In this document: positions 48,123-58,648 of the stretch, piece by piece
How the letters are laid out: the number at the start of each line of letters is the position of its first letter
How positions within the stretch are numbered: position 1 is the first letter of the stretch
Source of the DNA: Nitrospira sp.
GTDB lineage: Bacteria; Nitrospirota; Nitrospiria; Nitrospirales; Nitrospiraceae
Assembly: GCA_030123565.1 (NCBI GenBank)
Contig: CP126122.1
Span: 3,796,800 to 3,860,799, forward strand
Reading direction: 5' to 3'
DNA: 64,000 bases
Notes under the pieces: model-generated
What the model was told of the DNA's origin: nothing
Databases searched by the model: none
The model's input: only the letters and a program-made list of their open reading frames with translations
Made by a program: the position numbers and the translations under genes

Positions 48123-48494
48123 TTACTGCGGAGGACGATAGTTGGCTTCCAAGTCCGATTCCAAGGTAAAGACGAAGACGCGCTCCCCGACTACCGTATC
48201 GATGTCGGTAAACAAGGCCGTGATCTTCACGCCGATGAGCTCCGTCACCTGTTCGCAGAGCCGTTCGCGGCCCTGGGCGATGAGGGTCTGGCGCAGCCGT
48301 TTCACCATGTCGATGCCCTCGGGCGTTTTGGCCAACTGCCGCTCCGCGGGCGTCAGCACGCCCTTCAACCGCACGACGAGCATGTCCCGCACGATGAACG
48401 CCCGGACTTCGTCGGGACCGCGCCCGAGAAATTCCTGTTCGAACTTGATGATCGCCGTCCGGACTGCGGCTTCCTTTTCTCCCTTGCTGGGCAT
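48123..48494 (-). CDS. DUF2294-family protein
   Basis: The 123-residue product matches the DUF2294 (Na-translocating decarboxylase subunit-like) domain: IIKFEQEFLGRGPDEVRAFIVRDM, LVVRLKGVLTPAERQLAKT and FTDIDTVVGERVFVFTLE. Members occur in many bacteria without a proven role. Some sit near carbon-uptake genes, and this copy lies directly opposite the dab operon. It leads the selO transcription unit. Confidence 0.85.
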   Translation of the reverse strand: MPSKGEKEAAVRTAIIKFEQEFLGRGPDEVRAFIVRDMLVVRLKGVLTPAERQLAKTPEGIDMVKRLRQTLIAQGRERLCEQVTELIGVKITALFTDIDTVVGERVFVFTLESDLEANYRPPQ

Positions 48495-49002: not shown

Positions 49003-50697
49003 ATGTCCTTTCTAGTGCTCGTCGCGTTGTTGCCGCTCGTGACGGCGTTCATCGTGATGACCGGCGACTGCACGGAACAGGAGCGGAATGCGAGGATCGG
49101 CTGGTTTCCCATCATCGCCTCCTTCTTCGGGGCCGTAACCACACTCGTGCTCGTCACGCTCAACGGACCGGTTTCCGTGCGGCTGTACGATCCCGACGCG
49201 ATTGCCAATCTCGCCTTCCCGATCGGTTTTCATATCGACCGCCTCAGCGCGATCATGATGACGCTTATCACCGGAGTGGTGACAATCCTCTACCGCTACT
49301 CCATGGGCTATATGTACCAGGATCGTGGTTATCGTCGTTATCTGGGGCTGCTCGGCATCACAACCTCGGTCCTGATCTGCATGGTGTCCAGCGCCAATTT
49401 GGTGATGCTGTTTCTTTTCTGGCAGCTCGTCTCATGGCTCCTCTTTATTCTAGGCCATAACCATGGACATCTCGCGACTCTCGTGGGTGCTTCCCATACC
49501 TTCAAAATCTTGCGCCTCAGTGACGTGACGTTTCTCACCGGCATTGTCCTGGCCTATTCCCTCTACGGCACCTTCGAGTTTCAGCCGCTCTTCGAGCGCG
49601 CTGCCGACATCCCTGTCACCCTGTCGATTTGGCCGGCACTCGGGTGGGAGATGAACGGCGTAACGGCTGTGACCCTGCTCATTTTCGGCGGGGCGATGGG
49701 CAAGTCGGCCCAATTCCCCTTCCATACCTGGCTCCCGCCCGCGCTCTATGCCCCCACGCCCAGCACTGCGCTCCTCCATGCCGGCATCATCAATGCCGGG
49801 GGGTTCCTGTTAAACCGGCTCGCCCCGCTCTACGGCCAGAGTTCGACAACCCTGCATGTGGTGTTCGTCGTCGGCACGCTCACGACCATCCTCGGTGCGA
49901 CCATGATGTTGACCCAGAACGACATCAAGAAGACGCTCGGCTTTTCAACGATCGGTCAGATGGGCTACATGATCATGGAATGTGGCTTGGGCGCTTTCTC
50001 TCTGGCCGTCTTTCACTTGCTCGCGCACGGCCTGTTCAAGGTCATGGCGTTCCTGAACTCAGGCAATGTGATTCACAAGGCACGTCAGGAACCGGCATTC
50101 CCGAACATTGGCCATGGCGCAGAGCAAGGCGAATTCTCCAACCTGACATGGTCCACCGGCTTCCTCACGACGTTGTTTCTTCCGCTCGTGATCCTGCTGG
50201 TGACCCACGGTGTCTTGCACATTCCCCTGCTCGAATCACAGGGGACCGTCATCTTCCTCTTTTTCATCTGGGTGACCTCGTCGCAGGCGATCCTCTCGCT
50301 GACGCATCTCCGCGCCGTCGCTTCCTGGAAGGTGTCCGCCGCCATGCTGCTGACCCTGGTCCTAGTCGTCTTCACCTACCTGTTCGCCGTGGAAAGCTTT
50401 ACCCACTTTCTGTATCCGGATCCGGAGGAGGTGGCGTCCTACTTCAGGGCCGCGGCATTGCCGGGACGGCTCTTCGACAGTCTGGTGGTGGGGACGACCC
50501 TGCTGACCATCCTCAGTTGGTGTTATCTCTATGCCCGTGCCCATGGCCGCACGATCCGGATTCCCGGATGGATTGACACGTCCATGCATCGCCTCTATGT
50601 CACCTTCATGAACCGGCTCTATCTGGGTCAACTCTATCTCAAGTTGGGCCGGACCGTCGCGCTGGTGGCCGAACGTCTGGAGAAGCGGCTGTCATGA
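49003..50697 (+). CDS. dabB: DabB-like proton-conducting membrane subunit (NuoL/MrpA family)
   Basis: The 564-residue polytopic protein belongs to the proton-translocating NuoL family: GASHTFKILRLSDVTFLTGI, GAMGKSAQFPFHTWLPPALY and APTPSTALLHAGIINAGGF. A Lys/Glu-bearing transport path is expected. In DAB systems this subunit couples proton flow to DabA, which hydrates CO2 and gathers inorganic carbon. ATG 49003 is chosen (GGGG at five bases); the frame open from 48655 is not protein-like. It overlaps the next gene by four bases. Confidence 0.9.
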   Translation: MSFLVLVALLPLVTAFIVMTGDCTEQERNARIGWFPIIASFFGAVTTLVLVTLNGPVSVRLYDPDAIANLAFPIGFHIDRLSAIMMTLITGVVTILYRYSMGYMYQDRGYRRYLGLLGITTSVLICMVSSANLVMLFLFWQLVSWLLFILGHNHGHLATLVGASHTFKILRLSDVTFLTGIVLAYSLYGTFEFQPLFERAADIPVTLSIWPALGWEMNGVTAVTLLIFGGAMGKSAQFPFHTWLPPALYAPTPSTALLHAGIINAGGFLLNRLAPLYGQSSTTLHVVFVVGTLTTILGATMMLTQNDIKKTLGFSTIGQMGYMIMECGLGAFSLAVFHLLAHGLFKVMAFLNSGNVIHKARQEPAFPNIGHGAEQGEFSNLTWSTGFLTTLFLPLVILLVTHGVLHIPLLESQGTVIFLFFIWVTSSQAILSLTHLRAVASWKVSAAMLLTLVLVVFTYLFAVESFTHFLYPDPEEVASYFRAAALPGRLFDSLVVGTTLLTILSWCYLYARAHGRTIRIPGWIDTSMHRLYVTFMNRLYLGQLYLKLGRTVALVAERLEKRLS

Positions 50698-52010
50698 CGA
50701 ACCTGATACCGGCCTGGATGGCACCATGGCTGCTTGTCGGCGTCCCCTGCCTCGGCGCGGCATTCAGCCTGCTCCTGCGAGCATCGCTGGATCGCACGAA
50801 GGCCTGCGCCTTGGCCACGGCGGCCGCCAGCCTGTTCACGGTGGCGGGCTTGTCCTGGACGATGACCTTCCAGCCGGCCGGTATGCTTCTCCTCTTCCTG
50901 CTTCCGGCGGCGTCCTTTCTCTCGCTGCTGGGACAACCGCTACATCAGGATAATCGAGCGGCCTGGTCGATGACGTTGTTGCTGTTAGGGTTGGGGCTGG
51001 GCATCCTGAGCGCCGGGGAACCGGCTCGCACCGTCTTGCTCGTCACCCTGCTCGGTCTTCTCTGCGGCTTGATCTATCGGTATCGAAACGTTGTCCTGCC
51101 GGACCCCTGGCGAGGGCTGGCGACCTATGGCCTGGGCATGGCCTCGACCCTGCTGGCTCTGGCCCTCCCGGCACCGGCTGCCACCGTCGCAGCTCTCGTG
51201 ACCTGTGCGACCCTGCTGCCCCTGCTTCCGGTGCATGGAGGATTCGTCGCGGTCCTCACGGGATTACCGGGCAACCTTCCTGCGTTTCTGGTCTTCCTGT
51301 TGCCCGCGCTCGGCTTTCACGGCCTTGTGCTCCTGCTTCCGAACCTGACCGGTACGATGTTCCACACCCTGGCGCTGCTGGCCCTGGCCGGCGCCGTCTA
51401 CGGATCGCTGCGGGCCTTGATTCAGTCGCGTCCGCTGCCTCGCCTCGCCTATGCCGGCCTGGCATTGTTTTCCATGCTCTGGTGGTATGTCGCTGACACG
51501 GGAACCGCACCCGTGCAGGCTTCGGTCTATCTCAGCGCCGTGGGCCTCGCGATAAGCGGGCTCCTGCTGGCCTGGTACGCGATCCGGGCTCGGTACGGCG
51601 AGATCGACCTGCGCGCCCTCAGCGGCTTGGCCTATCCCATGCCCCGCTTCAGCACCCTCATGACGTTGCTGGCGCTCGCCGCCCTGGGCATGCCGCCCTT
51701 CGGCGTGTTTGCCGGGTTCCTGGGCATGTTGCTCAATCCCGCGTTTGCGCCGTCCGGACCCTTCGCCGTCATCATGCTCGCTTGGCTCAGTTCGTCCTGG
51801 TACTTGATCGAGCTGGTGCAACAAGTGGTTTTCGGCCGGCAACGGCCGGATCTGCGGTATGAAGACCTGCGCCGGACGGAATTTGCTTCTCTGGTCCTGT
51901 TGCTGCTGCTGCTGCTGGTCTTGGGCACCGCCCCCTCCCGATTATTTGAATCGAGCGCCGCGACTCCTCCCGCTTCTGTTGCGATGAAGGGTGAGAGATG
52001 GATCCGTTGA
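50694..52010 (+). CDS. second, shorter NuoM-like membrane subunit of the DAB operon
   Basis: The 438-residue protein is almost entirely hydrophobic helices (about twelve). It shows a weak resemblance to the NuoM/NuoL group, for example PRLAYAGLALFSMLWWYVAD and STLMTLLALAALGMPPFGVF. It overlaps dabB at its start by four bases (ATGA) and dabA at its end by 13 bases, so it is an integral member of the operon. It may form a membrane complex with DabB; the common two-gene DAB has no such extra subunit. Confidence 0.82.
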   Translation: MTNLIPAWMAPWLLVGVPCLGAAFSLLLRASLDRTKACALATAAASLFTVAGLSWTMTFQPAGMLLLFLLPAASFLSLLGQPLHQDNRAAWSMTLLLLGLGLGILSAGEPARTVLLVTLLGLLCGLIYRYRNVVLPDPWRGLATYGLGMASTLLALALPAPAATVAALVTCATLLPLLPVHGGFVAVLTGLPGNLPAFLVFLLPALGFHGLVLLLPNLTGTMFHTLALLALAGAVYGSLRALIQSRPLPRLAYAGLALFSMLWWYVADTGTAPVQASVYLSAVGLAISGLLLAWYAIRARYGEIDLRALSGLAYPMPRFSTLMTLLALAALGMPPFGVFAGFLGMLLNPAFAPSGPFAVIMLAWLSSSWYLIELVQQVVFGRQRPDLRYEDLRRTEFASLVLLLLLLLVLGTAPSRLFESSAATPPASVAMKGERWIR

Positions 52011-55000
52011 TCCGCACCGACGATGCACCGGACATCGAAGCGCGCCGCATGGAGCTGCGGGCCATGATCCGCCTCGCCAGCGAGGTGATCGCGCAATATT
52101 GGCCCATGCGGACCTTCGTCCACCACAATCCGTTGCATAGCCTGGAGTACCTGCCGTTCACGGAAACGGTCCGCCGCGGGCAACAATTCCTGGGCGGCAA
52201 CGGCTACCTCCCCGGTGAGGTCTATCGACGGTACTTGAAGTCCGGCAGAATTTTGGTTCGCCACATCGAGGAGGCCGTGGCGCCGCTGGCGCGCGATCAG
52301 GAAGTGGTCCTCGGCCCCTGCCGCATCTCGCACCGGGAGGTGTTGCGGGCCTGTCTCACCCATGGGCTGTCCGCACCGACGGACGAACCGCTCGATCGTC
52401 TGATGGAACGGGAGCCGAACGAGGAGCAAGTCGAAGACCTGGCCGAGCGCCTGGTGTCCCTGACCTCGCCGACCGTCCAGGAAAGGATGGCCGTCACGGT
52501 CCGCGAAGATGTGGCTGCATTGGGACGGCAGGTGACGCTGTCGAGTTGGTGCGACCGGACATTGGGCACCGACATCGTGCAACAGATCAACAGCGAGTTG
52601 ATCAAGTGGTGCGAAGCCTTTCTGGACGAGGGCCATGCCACCTGGCCGATGCCGGGGCGGGAACAGGGGCTCTATTCAGCCTGGAAGGCGCTGGCTGCAA
52701 AAGAATGGATGACCTGCGGCATCGCTGACAGCCGTCGGAAGATCGCCTCGTTGCCGGAACATCCCGAGGACACGGTCCTCGACTGCCTCGAGACCCTGGC
52801 GATCCCGGCGGAGTTCCGGCAGGACTACCTCGCGCTCCAACTCGCGGCCCTGCCCGGTTGGGCCGGGTTCATCAAATGGCGCGCGGAAGAAACCAGCTAC
52901 GCCTGGCAACAGGCCTATCCCGTCGGGCTGGTGAAGTTCCTCGCCGTCCGTTTGTGGTACGTGAGCGAACTGGTCCAGAAAGTCTGCCGGGATGAATTGG
53001 GCATCGAAGGGAATTATCGCTCGATCTCGACCTTCATGGAGCAGGAGCCCCACGCCTACTTCATGCGCAAGGAACGGGCGGCAGGACGGCTGTCGGCCGC
53101 CTATGCCGAACTGGTCGATCGGCTTCATGCCAGGACCGGAAGGCGGGACGGAGCGGCAGCCCTCTCGCGCGAGTGGGAACAGCTCGCCCATCGGTACCAA
53201 ATAGAATTCGGACCACGCCGCGAACGGGCCGCACGGCGGGTCATGGCTCGACGCCTGCTCGCGCTCGCCCAGGCGCTTGAGATCGTCCCGACCCTGTTGA
53301 TGGAAGGGCCCCCGGCGGACCTTCGTCTGCTCCTCGATTGGATGGATGCCTTTCCGGAATCGGAACATGGTCCCGTGTGGCTCAAGGCCTTCGAGGCGGG
53401 GTATCAGGATCACCTCTTCGGCATGCTCCTGCGCGCGCCGGCCAAGCCCCAACCGGCCGTCCCGGACCGCCAACCACCCGTACGGCCCCATTCGCAATCG
53501 GTCTTTTGCATCGACGTGCGCTCCGAGCCGTTCCGCCGCCACCTGGAATCGACGGGCGCGAACGACACCTACGGCTTCGCGGGATTCTTCGCGGTCTTCA
53601 TCCGGTATCGGGCCTGGGGCAAGGAACATGAGACCGAGCAGTTTCCGGTGATCATGCGCGCGAAGAACGAAGTGCGGGAGATCCCCCGCAGCTACCTGGA
53701 CCACTACGTATCGAAACACCAGTCGCGGGCCAAACTCGTCCATGCCGGCCACACCCTGCTGCACGACCTCAAGGAGAATGTCGTGACGCCCTATGTCATG
53801 GTGGAGTCGTTGGGATGGTTTTACACGCTCCCCATCGTGGGAAAGACCTTATTGCCCGCCCTGTACAAACGCCTGACCGGCTGGGTGCGGCGCCTGTTCG
53901 TCCCGCCGATCGCCACCAGCCTCACGGTGGACAAGCTGGCTCCGGCCGAAACCGAAGAGATGGTGGTGTCCGAACAACGGGCGCTGATCTGGAAGGCGTT
54001 GCGCGACCGGCTCGGACTCCATGGATCGCGGGTCGACCCGGAATTCGTCGAGGCGCTCCGCCGGCGGGCCCTGGATGAAGATGCGCCGGTCGAGCCGTTC
54101 TTGAGCGACGCGGCGGAGGCGGTCGAATTGTCGGCGGAGCAACTGGCGGCATTTCTCGACGAGCTCCGGCGGCACTACCACATCAATCGCCGCGCAGCAT
54201 CCCGCCAGAAGGAGCGGATTACGCGGACCGGCTTCACGCTCGACGAGCAGGTCATCACGGTGGAAACCGCGCTGCGCATGATGGGGCTGGTCAGGAACTT
54301 CGCGCGGCTCGTGCTCTTTTGCGCGCACGGCAGCACCACCGAGAACAATCCCTTCGAATCGGCGCTCGATTGCGGCGCCTGCGGAGGGAACGAAGGGAAA
54401 CCCAACTCCCGTGTGCTGGCTGCCATGGCCAACCGGCAGCCGGTCCGGGAACGGCTGGCGAAACGCGGCATCGAGATTCCGCCGGATACACATTTCCTCG
54501 CGGGCCAAGTGGATACCACGATGGACGAGGTCCAGCTCTTCGATCTCGAAGACGTGCCGCCGACCCATCGCAAGGACGTGGCCAGGCTGTTCGACGACCT
54601 GCGGGAAGCGGCCCAACTGACGAGTCAGGAGCGCTGCGCCAGATTTCCCGATGTCGGCGCCGTCCTGCCGCTGACCGCGGCGACCACCGAGGTGGCCGAA
54701 CGCAGCGCGGACTGGAGCCAGGTGCGGCCGGAATGGGGCCTGTCCGGCAATACGGCGTTCCTCATCGGCCGGCGGGACCTGACCAAGGGACTCAATCTGG
54801 CCGGACGAGTGTTCCTCCATTCCTATGACTATCGGGAAGACCCGACGGACCGGTTGCTCGAAGTGCTCCTGACCGCGCCGCAAGTGGTGGCGCAGTGGAT
54901 CAACATGGAACATTATTTCTCGACCGTGGACAATGAGGTCTATGGAGGCGGGAGTAAGATCTATCACAACGTCGTCGGCCGCATCGGCATCATGTCCGGA

Positions 55001-55312
55001 CCCTGGAGCGATCTGCGGCTCGGCCTGGCCTGGCAGACCGTCATGAACGGCGACATGCCCTATCACGAACCCATGCGTCTCCTGACGCTCGTCGAAGCGC
55101 CGCGTGCGCGTATCGAGAAACTCATCGCCAGGCACGAGGTGTTGCAACATTTCTATCACAACGAGTGGGTGCACCTGGCGGCACTGGACCCGGAGGACGG
55201 AACCTGGTACCGCTATATGCCGTCGGGGGTCTGGCGCCGGGTCAGACATCCCGACGACAGCTACACCGAAGCAAGCATCCCGACTGGCAAGACCTCATTG
55301 CAAAGGAGTTGA
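51998..55312 (+). CDS. dabA: inorganic-carbon transporter DabA (DUF2309)
   Basis: The 1104-residue soluble subunit has a beta-carbonic-anhydrase-like zinc site. Candidate ligands are Cys504 and Asp506 in FCIDVRSEPFRRHLE and His777 and Cys792 in FCAHGSTTENNPFESALDC, the same Cys/Asp-His/Cys arrangement and spacing as in characterised DabA. N-terminal WPMRTFVHHNPLHSLEYLPF is typical. With DabB it uses the proton gradient to make bicarbonate from CO2. The overlap with the preceding gene suggests coupled synthesis. Confidence 0.95.
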   Translation: MDPLIRTDDAPDIEARRMELRAMIRLASEVIAQYWPMRTFVHHNPLHSLEYLPFTETVRRGQQFLGGNGYLPGEVYRRYLKSGRILVRHIEEAVAPLARDQEVVLGPCRISHREVLRACLTHGLSAPTDEPLDRLMEREPNEEQVEDLAERLVSLTSPTVQERMAVTVREDVAALGRQVTLSSWCDRTLGTDIVQQINSELIKWCEAFLDEGHATWPMPGREQGLYSAWKALAAKEWMTCGIADSRRKIASLPEHPEDTVLDCLETLAIPAEFRQDYLALQLAALPGWAGFIKWRAEETSYAWQQAYPVGLVKFLAVRLWYVSELVQKVCRDELGIEGNYRSISTFMEQEPHAYFMRKERAAGRLSAAYAELVDRLHARTGRRDGAAALSREWEQLAHRYQIEFGPRRERAARRVMARRLLALAQALEIVPTLLMEGPPADLRLLLDWMDAFPESEHGPVWLKAFEAGYQDHLFGMLLRAPAKPQPAVPDRQPPVRPHSQSVFCIDVRSEPFRRHLESTGANDTYGFAGFFAVFIRYRAWGKEHETEQFPVIMRAKNEVREIPRSYLDHYVSKHQSRAKLVHAGHTLLHDLKENVVTPYVMVESLGWFYTLPIVGKTLLPALYKRLTGWVRRLFVPPIATSLTVDKLAPAETEEMVVSEQRALIWKALRDRLGLHGSRVDPEFVEALRRRALDEDAPVEPFLSDAAEAVELSAEQLAAFLDELRRHYHINRRAASRQKERITRTGFTLDEQVITVETALRMMGLVRNFARLVLFCAHGSTTENNPFESALDCGACGGNEGKPNSRVLAAMANRQPVRERLAKRGIEIPPDTHFLAGQVDTTMDEVQLFDLEDVPPTHRKDVARLFDDLREAAQLTSQERCARFPDVGAVLPLTAATTEVAERSADWSQVRPEWGLSGNTAFLIGRRDLTKGLNLAGRVFLHSYDYREDPTDRLLEVLLTAPQVVAQWINMEHYFSTVDNEVYGGGSKIYHNVVGRIGIMSGPWSDLRLGLAWQTVMNGDMPYHEPMRLLTLVEAPRARIEKLIARHEVLQHFYHNEWVHLAALDPEDGTWYRYMPSGVWRRVRHPDDSYTEASIPTGKTSLQRS

Positions 55313-55315
55313 AAC

Positions 55316-55657
55316 ATGGCCGGCCTAACGTTGCATCCCATGAAAGAGATCCGCGTCATCGTGTCGGGTGAGAACCGGCCCTTTGTGACCGAGTTGTTGG
55401 ACAAGGTCCAGGCGTCCGGGTACACCATCATCGGCAATATCTCGGGGAAGGGACACCATGGTGTACGCGAAGCCCACTTCATGTTCAGCGAGCAGGAGAG
55501 CCTGGTGATGATCATGGCGGTGGTCCCGGAAGAAAAGGTGGAGCCGGTGCTGGCCGGGCTGCGACCGCTGTTCGATCGATATTCCGGCGTCATGTTTGTC
55601 TCCGATGTCGCCGTGAGCCGGCGCGAGTATTTCGGCAAAAAGACGGCCACACCCTGA
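55316..55657 (+). CDS. PII-like signalling protein of the DAB operon
   Basis: The 113-residue protein is a PII-superfamily ferredoxin-like fold: MKEIRVIVSGENRPFVTELL, a T-loop region ISGKGHHGVREAHFMF, and VMIMAVVPEEKVEPVLAGL. It lacks the classical uridylylated tyrosine environment, so it resembles the carbon-linked CPII/SbtB-type proteins. AAGGAG precedes the ATG by seven bases, three bases after dabA. It probably reports adenine nucleotide or bicarbonate status to DabA/DabB; this is inference. Confidence 0.85.
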   Translation: MAGLTLHPMKEIRVIVSGENRPFVTELLDKVQASGYTIIGNISGKGHHGVREAHFMFSEQESLVMIMAVVPEEKVEPVLAGLRPLFDRYSGVMFVSDVAVSRREYFGKKTATP

Positions 55658-57771: not shown

Positions 57772-58197
57772 TTATCCGTAAATTACATTTATCGCCAACG
57801 GGATTTTTCTGAACGTGATGATCGCCGCGGCAAGATGGGTGAGGCCGAGGAAACTGCGTTCGAGTTTCTCATACCGCACGAGCAGCTTGCGAAAGCGATT
57901 GAACCAGCTATGCGCGACCTCCACAATCCACCTCCTGGCTCGCTTCGTCGGATGCCGCCGCTGCTCCTCGGCTTCCTGCCCGCGCCCTTTGACATGGGCG
58001 ATGTAGCCATGCTCTTCAATGGTGACACGTGCCGGAATGCCGGTGTAGCCTGCATCGGCACACAAGTGCTGGCTGCGTCGCTCAGGCGGCGAGGGACGCG
58101 GCACTACGATGGCGTCAAGGACGACGGCCAGCTGGCTCACATCATGCCGGTTTGCCGCGGTCACGATGATCGACAGCGGGACGCCACGATCGTCCAC
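57772..58197 (-). CDS. IS5-family transposase, C-terminal frame (OrfB)
   Basis: The 141-residue frame starts at a GTG inside VDDRGVPLSIIVTAANRH but is really the continuation of OrfA. It carries the second catalytic Asp (CADAGYTG) and the Glu in VEVAHSWFNRFRKLL. A continuous protein would need one A less in the A7 run, or a frameshift or transcription slippage there. Confidence 0.9.
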   Translation of the reverse strand: MDDRGVPLSIIVTAANRHDVSQLAVVLDAIVVPRPSPPERRSQHLCADAGYTGIPARVTIEEHGYIAHVKGRGQEAEEQRRHPTKRARRWIVEVAHSWFNRFRKLLVRYEKLERSFLGLTHLAAAIITFRKIPLAINVIYG

Positions 58198-58648
58198 CAG
58201 CAGGTGGCGCTTGCTTCCATTTTTTTCCCCGATCCGTCGGGTTCGGCCCGACCGCTTCCTGAGCCAGCGGCGCTTTCATCATGGCCCCGTCGATACTCTG
58301 CCAGCGCCACGCGATGCCTTCCACGTCGTCATACTCCGCCAGCCCGGCCTGCCAGAGGGCTGCGAACAGGCCGGCGTTCTGCCACTCGAGAAAGCGCTTG
58401 TGAATGGCGCTCGCGCTCCCAAAGCGCTCGGTCGGCAACGCCTTCCACTGACAGCCCGTGCGCAACACGTAGACGATGCCCTCGAACACCAGGCGCGCCT
58501 CCTTGGGTTTGCGCCCACCCCCGGGTTTGCGCACGTAGGGCTTGGCCCTCGCACGCCGGCGCGCGGGGATCAAGGGTTCGACCCGTTGCCAAAACGCGTC
58601 CGACACTTCCCATGCTGCCGCCCTGCTGTGCGTCACACGTTTCGCCAT
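58142..58648 (-). CDS. IS5-family transposase, N-terminal frame (OrfA)
   Basis: The 168-residue frame starts MAKRVTHSRAAAWEV. It has the DNA-binding helices with EARLVFEGIVYVLRTGCQWK and the first catalytic Asp in WRWQSIDGAMMKAP. Beyond DRGKKW its sequence no longer matches transposases, because the frame switches at an A7 run (58220-58226). Confidence 0.9.
   Translation of the reverse strand: MAKRVTHSRAAAWEVSDAFWQRVEPLIPARRRARAKPYVRKPGGGRKPKEARLVFEGIVYVLRTGCQWKALPTERFGSASAIHKRFLEWQNAGLFAALWQAGLAEYDDVEGIAWRWQSIDGAMMKAPLAQEAVGPNPTDRGKKWKQAPPAGGRSWRPAVDHRDRGKPA

Follow-up and report, generated by a model that had tools for sequence, protein, structure and literature searches.

A NuoM-like membrane protein without proton-path residues as putative third subunit of a DAB-type carbon-uptake complex in Nitrospira

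Among the described carbon-uptake systems of the DAB type, DAB2 (DabA2-DabB2; PDB 9rd0) is a complex of two proteins, for which PMC13144422 gives no third subunit and reports a DabB-DabA fusion engineered for stability. The same paper describes DAB1 of Halothiobacillus neapolitanus as a three-subunit DAB with a "small hypothetical transmembrane protein", and DAB1 adjoins the cso operon according to PMC12918739. The cyanobacterial NDH-1MS operon has the order ndhF3-ndhD3-cupA-cupS (PMC11456788), and in NdhF3 the charged residues of a lateral channel are swapped for non-polar ones, which gives a proposed CO2 route to CupA (PMC6981117). In MpsABC of Staphylococcus, DabB-like, DabA-like and MpsC-like genes occur together. 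Schmid reportedly tested DACs that comprise one, two or three subunits, all of which are said to have been needed. Here we analyze a stretch of 64,000 nucleotides from Nitrospira sp. (GenBank assembly GCA_030123565.1, contig CP126122.1, positions 3,796,800 to 3,860,799 of the forward strand; called the window throughout), which holds an operon of four genes: dabB, a second membrane gene termed X, dabA and a gene for a PII-like protein.

Open reading frames (ORFs) and family scans reproduced exactly the layout given by an initial annotation of this DNA, namely NuoL-like, NuoM-like, DabA and PII-like genes in one unit, with dabB and X overlapping by 4 bases, X and dabA by 13 bases, and dabA and the PII gene separated by 3 bases; the start of dabB is an ATG within a longer open frame. 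This annotation was right about the gene set, but its premise of a two-protein DAB made up of DabA plus DabB was incomplete, as the three-subunit DAB1 had already been described (PMC13144422). The operon resembles NDH-1MS in that a NuoL-like, a NuoM-like, a zinc CO2-hydrating and a small protein are encoded in the same order. It differs in that the fold of CupA is unrelated to that of DabA (PMC6981117, PMC13144422) and NDH-1MS is driven by electron transfer, whereas no electron-input subunit is encoded alongside the Nitrospira operon: neither such subunits nor CupA were found among the scanned neighbors, which were MpsC, SelO, DUF2252 and one gene without a family. With MpsABC it shares DabB-like, DabA-like and MpsC-like genes, but in Nitrospira MpsC is transcribed divergently, and the operon contains X and the PII gene in addition.

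The conservation of the operon was followed along two routes. A phylum sample of 198 genomes contained DabA in 83, and 100 regions were fetched from it in addition to the window; the regions leave aside DabA fragments and roughly a dozen full-length DabA places in the family labelled f18. From a scan of named genomes, 80 of 105 relatives were kept; most are Nitrospira, and the others include two Nitrosomonas, a Deltaproteobacteria metagenome-assembled genome (MAG), a Planctomycetia MAG of anammox type and Candidatus Loosdrechtia. A phmmer search with X matched 57 loci among the 100 regions and the window, one of which (L129) holds a true antiporter-like gene. The two routes gave 135 X loci, a count that includes duplicates, some genomes having been fetched twice, and before which 7 antiporter-like ORFs were set aside; duplicates were removed for the tables of the DabB gate, the DabA residues and the 122 X proteins, but not for the linkage counts or the first DabB and X residue tables. 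Where the contig left enough room, X was accompanied by DabB in 119 of 119 loci, by DabA in 122 of 122 and by the PII gene in 110 of 114. No PII gene was found after DabA in the two Nitrosomonas and the two Planctomycete loci. X was also present upstream of all 37 full-length DabAs that scored above 1640 bits and had room for it. Nitrospira, Nitrosomonas, anammox Planctomycetes and the Deltaproteobacteria MAG all share the order DabB-X-DabA-(PII), and because it is conserved in relatives the operon is not a product of chance.

Within the genus, 12 of the 13 genomes with DabA (that of the window included) had an X locus among the regions fetched; the thirteenth (G018) has another DabA, cut at a contig start and outside these regions. 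A check of the dab loci for absence or unlinking of X thus upheld the proposal that the second membrane gene is linked in relatives. In ten loci (7 from the phylum survey and 3 more) DabB and X were fused in a single frame, with roughly the first 100-130 positions of X missing in most, and these natural fusions argue for the contact between X and DabB that had been proposed as well. Intact homologues speak against a sequencing or frame error as the source of X, and this reading was rejected. The idea that X accompanies any long DabA was also discarded, since in a second Nitrospirota type with long DabA and PII, DabB adjoins DabA and there is no X.

Other arrangements were seen around DabA. In a further genus belonging to the same family, two tandem dabB genes precede X and dabA (L037, L038, L046, L048, L049, L090, L092-L095, L097-L099). 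In one distant family (L125-L128, L130) a membrane ORF of about 450-470 aa lies between DabB and DabA and gave weak NuoM-type matches in the two that were scanned; the X profile does not find it, and HHalign to X yielded 12.7% (E 0.0023), too little to establish a link with X. Finally, in giant loci of a distant phylum-mate and of Gammaproteobacteria (L129, L232, L259-L270), DabA sits in a cluster with as many as four antiporter-like genes (NuoM-DabA-NuoL-NuoM-NuoM) that have kept their pumping residues.

No Pfam family matched X itself at E ≤ 1, and NCBIfam NDH_I_M matched it partially over residues 165-421 (E 1.1e-18), with 67 (66.8) bits against a cut-off of 263.8. With this score, and with five NuoM genes above the cut-off elsewhere in the same genome (4.6 Mb in a single contig, with one DabA), a misassigned complex I gene could be rejected. 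An AlphaFold2 model of X, based on 46 sequences from the window and related loci (pLDDT 90.8, pTM 0.90), showed 14 membrane helices, of which transmembrane helices (TM) 7 and 12 are broken as in NuoM. VIA-align superposed it on ND4, NuoM, MrpD and NuoL chains over nearly the whole length (Z 36.6-39.4, root-mean-square deviation 2.5-3.5 Å), and Foldseek returned the same chain types with E down to 4.5e-11. The 14-helix fold, the breaks in TM7 and TM12 and the prolines P236 and P399 are shared with NuoM/ND4/NdhD of complex I. Unlike these proteins, X has a score far under the NDH_I_M cut-off and has lost the residues of the proton path: among 122 distinct X proteins, NuoM K234, K265, H348 and E407 are kept in none and H322 in two, and hydrophobic residues stand in for them. 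In 23 pump-type controls aligned together with X (five NuoM-like proteins of the window genome, fifteen from giant loci and three MrpD-like), K265 was present in all, K or R at position 234 in 22 and H322 in 22; H348 and E407 varied between groups. The second membrane protein is thus a linked addition, as the initial annotation had it, but not an additional proton channel of the NuoM kind. X is under purifying selection, with dN/dS (nonsynonymous to synonymous rates, four pairs) of 0.19-0.31 for X, 0.12-0.14 for DabB, 0.11-0.13 for DabA and 0.03-0.10 for PII. An alignment of 23 sequences shows 25 positions at which X does not vary.

A shorter relative of X was found in a gammaproteobacterial sample (369 genomes from the class of Nitrosomonas sp. 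Nm51, with DabA in 83), from which 60 regions were fetched non-randomly, mainly around long DabAs. In 33 of the 60, DabB and a long DabA occur together with a small X-like gene (about 255 aa), nearly all with a PII-like gene. This small family aligned collinearly to residues 167-412 of X, that is its C-terminal half (HHalign 98.4%, E 9e-15, 238 columns), and a control alignment of the small family with DabB gave 0.03%. When the half common to both was used for a maximum-likelihood tree, a 100/100 branch separated X with its diverged forms and the small proteins from pump-type NuoM, NuoN and MrpD; the root of this tree is not fixed, and some of its branches are long. X and the small proteins thus belong to one family, and at the level of sequence comparison X classifies as a full-length variant of the third subunit of the DAB1 class. 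The unnamed small subunit of DAB1 in turn appears to be a shortened X; the link to hneap_0908 runs only through gene order, description and BMC neighbors, two of the gammaproteobacterial loci (L230, L239) adjoining carboxysome shell genes (BMC). DAB1 (hneap_0907/0908/0909) and the gammaproteobacterial DAB1-type operons share with Nitrospira the DabB gene, a third membrane gene, DabA and mostly a PII gene after DabA. Nitrospira differs from the DAB1 type by an X of full length (14 helices, 438 aa, versus about 255 aa), by Q instead of H or Y at the DabB gate position and by a DabB that has kept K235, which is R in 31 of 33 DAB1-type sequences. The class of the third subunit was known already, but the full-length variant and its ancestry are undescribed in the literature covered: our search, which is not a claim of absence from print, retrieved no NuoM-like third DAB subunit and no detailed account of a DAB in Nitrospira. 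In one locus (L254, 4744-8109) a single frame joins most of DabA to a PII-like domain, which may be a natural fusion or a frame error.

The two partner subunits have kept their functional residues. In the DabA of the window (DabA2 numbering) the zinc ligands C351/H524/C539, the D353-R355 dyad, the finger residue E444 and L658 are all present, and each of the 82 high-scoring X-type sequences has them too. Its DabB (DabB2 numbering) retains R182, D185, K235, H260, K310, S316, H339, H343 and K347, with T at S256; the same path residues are found in essentially all X-type DabBs, with mostly His or Thr, and Ser in some, at position 256. DAB2 (PMC13144422) shares all these DabA features as well as the DabB proton-path residues except S256, but has a shorter DabA and an Ile/Val gate. 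In sequence the window DabB matches NdhF/NuoL (E 1e-58) more closely than DabB2 (E 1e-33).

The gate position separates the locus types. The gate Glu of NuoL corresponds to Ile151 in DabB2, where restoration of Glu halves the growth yield (PMC13144422). At this position (NuoL Glu144) the window DabB carries Q, and Gln was found in 125 of 126 unique X-locus sequences with a letter there, the sole exception (L204) coming from another DabB of that contig, one that has no X. The DabB-X fusions likewise had Gln (9/9), whereas X-less long-DabA loci had His (14/14) and short-DabA loci of the Nitrospirota sample Val or Ile (12/12). The 33 DAB1-type DabBs showed His, Tyr or other residues, with one Gln, and ten short gammaproteobacterial sequences were mixed. 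Glu was present in 7 of 7 NuoL-like subunits of Mrp-type loci and in 13 of 13 unique ones of the giant loci, which lie beside intact NuoM-like genes. From these sequences we infer that the gate Glu is kept where the neighboring subunit still pumps and that another residue takes its place where the neighbor is degenerate or absent. In five loci (L078, L096, L104, L114, L121) DabA lies beside Mrp-type antiporter operons, and Mrp-linked DabAs have Asp for Glu at the finger position (8/8). The DabAs of the giant loci carry His at the Leu658 position (15/15), where canonical beta-carbonic anhydrases carry Gln or His, and no consistent finger Glu was found at the aligned column.

The PII-like protein aligned with the structure of Thiomonas CPII (PDB 5d4n) over the whole fold, with 49 of 101 aligned residues identical (E 1.6e-32). 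The PII gene that had been put forward as part of a larger regulated complex is thus present, but belongs to the known CPII type. Unlike that of Thiomonas CPII, it lies in a DAB operon with no carboxysome locus adjoining. No PII gene was found beside the short-DabA loci surveyed in Nitrospirota.

We therefore consider it probable that the operon encodes a DAB1-class CO2-hydrating complex driven by the proton-motive force, in which X is a non-pumping third subunit beside DabB and the CPII-like protein tunes the complex. Since their residues are conserved with respect to DAB2, where the mechanism was shown by others, DabA would hydrate CO2 at a buried zinc site and DabB would conduct the driving protons, with the DabA finger completing the periplasmic half-channel. 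X, a NuoM shell without proton path, would pack beside DabB as NuoM packs beside NuoL and may act as a scaffold or seal, stabilizing DabB and keeping DabA in place. The CPII-like protein would most likely bind on the cytoplasmic side and tune the complex to the adenylate/bicarbonate (carbon or energy) state, a role suggested by its name and by the biochemistry of CPII. Of the larger, regulated complex first proposed, the larger size is thus supported by genomics, and the regulation is plausible. Several points weigh against this picture. X is assigned to the complex by genomic inference, and DabA and DabB work or occur without X in DAB2 and in the other DAB type of Nitrospira. X has retained the TM7 His at the position of NuoM H241 in 117 of 122 sequences and has a TM8 His four residues past K265 in 98 of 122 (H181 and H209 in the window protein), and its dN/dS reaches about twice the values of DabB and DabA. 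Finally, AlphaFold gave only a weak model (pLDDT 74, pTM 0.61), without trustworthy packing, for one of the natural fusions of DabB with X (L211, of the anammox L209/L211 type).

A bolder reading, which we hold to be doubtful, takes DABs as the last, reduced members of a series starting from complex-I-like CO2-hydrating machines and running from the giant loci over full-length X shells, DabB-X fusions with about nine helices and the DAB1 subunits of about 255 aa to the two-subunit DAB2, the X shell serving as CO2 conduit or gate. The conduit can also be considered by itself: the emptied hydrophobic interior of X would lead CO2 to the zinc site of DabA, as proposed for NdhF3 in NDH-1MS. The gene order equals that of ndhF3-ndhD3-cupA-cupS (PMC11456788), and the replacement of charged by non-polar residues in NdhF3 (PMC6981117) is of the same kind as that seen across X. 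However, the proposed channel of NDH-1MS is the NuoL-like and not the NuoM-like subunit, and DabA and CupA have unrelated folds (PMC6981117, PMC13144422), which makes a conduit in X unlikely.

It is rather improbable that X is still an ion channel with a changed route, in which the TM7 and TM8 His conduct protons or Na+ and more ions are used per CO2 than in DAB2. The complete antiporter fold of the model, in which TM7 and TM12 are both broken, and the two conserved His would fit such a channel, but the complete loss of K234, K265, H348 and E407 and the loss of H322 in 120 of 122 sequences in favor of hydrophobic residues do not, nor does the small DAB1 version, in which the position of the TM7 His is S in 20 of 21 sequences. 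The gate of X-type DabB, Q rather than the E of NuoL-like subunits next to intact NuoM-like ones, also speaks against it. A separate antiporter-like protein outside the DAB complex, merely co-transcribed and used for instance for pH balance, would agree with an association of X with DabA and DabB that is known by inference; ten DabB-X fusions, the obligate linkage and the lost pumping residues make this very unlikely. That X is a functionless, decaying relic, as the lost key residues and the truncated forms in fusions and DAB1 operons might suggest, is hardly credible in view of its dN/dS, its invariant positions and the intact frames in the loci surveyed.

The positions of the genes are listed in Table 1. 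The MpsC-like gene upstream, which echoes MpsABC of Staphylococcus, was absent from the initial annotation. Of the 79 X loci whose upstream sequence was long enough to tell, 65 have MpsC close to the operon; the gene is not specific to X loci, as it also occurs near some X-less ones. About 2 kb downstream of the operon, two overlapping transposase frames of the IS4/IS5 type (DDE_Tnp, DUF4096) occupy positions 57772-58648 on the minus strand. The window genome (G000) has one DabA, and 11 of the 12 other same-genus genomes with DabA have at least two matches, often an X-less DAB plus the X type.

Table 1. Genes of the DAB operon and its divergent upstream neighbor (positions in the window)
Gene and product	Position	Strand	Family match
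dabB, NuoL-like antiporter-fold membrane subunit, 564 aa	49003-50697	+	PF00361, E 2.3e-46
X, NuoM-fold membrane protein without ionizable proton-path residues, 438 aa	50694-52010	+	partial NDH_I_M
dabA, beta-carbonic-anhydrase-like subunit, 1104 aa	51998-55312	+	PF10070, E 1.7e-265, whole model
CPII-like PII protein, 113 aa	55316-55657	+	PF00543, E 4.5e-22
MpsC-like gene, divergent, just upstream of the operon	48123-48494	-	PF10057, E 7.3e-36

In summary, the third subunit of three-subunit DABs receives a name and an ancestry, that of a NuoM without its proton path. The DAB1 class is extended to nitrite oxidizers, ammonia oxidizers and anammox bacteria, which use three different carbon-fixation pathways. 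The role of X is open to residue-swap tests, and the natural DabB-X fusions, as single chains, can be used for structural work. Relatives of X, shrunken or fused, recur in nitrifiers, anammox bacteria and carboxysome bacteria, and this family would explain the hitherto nameless subunit.

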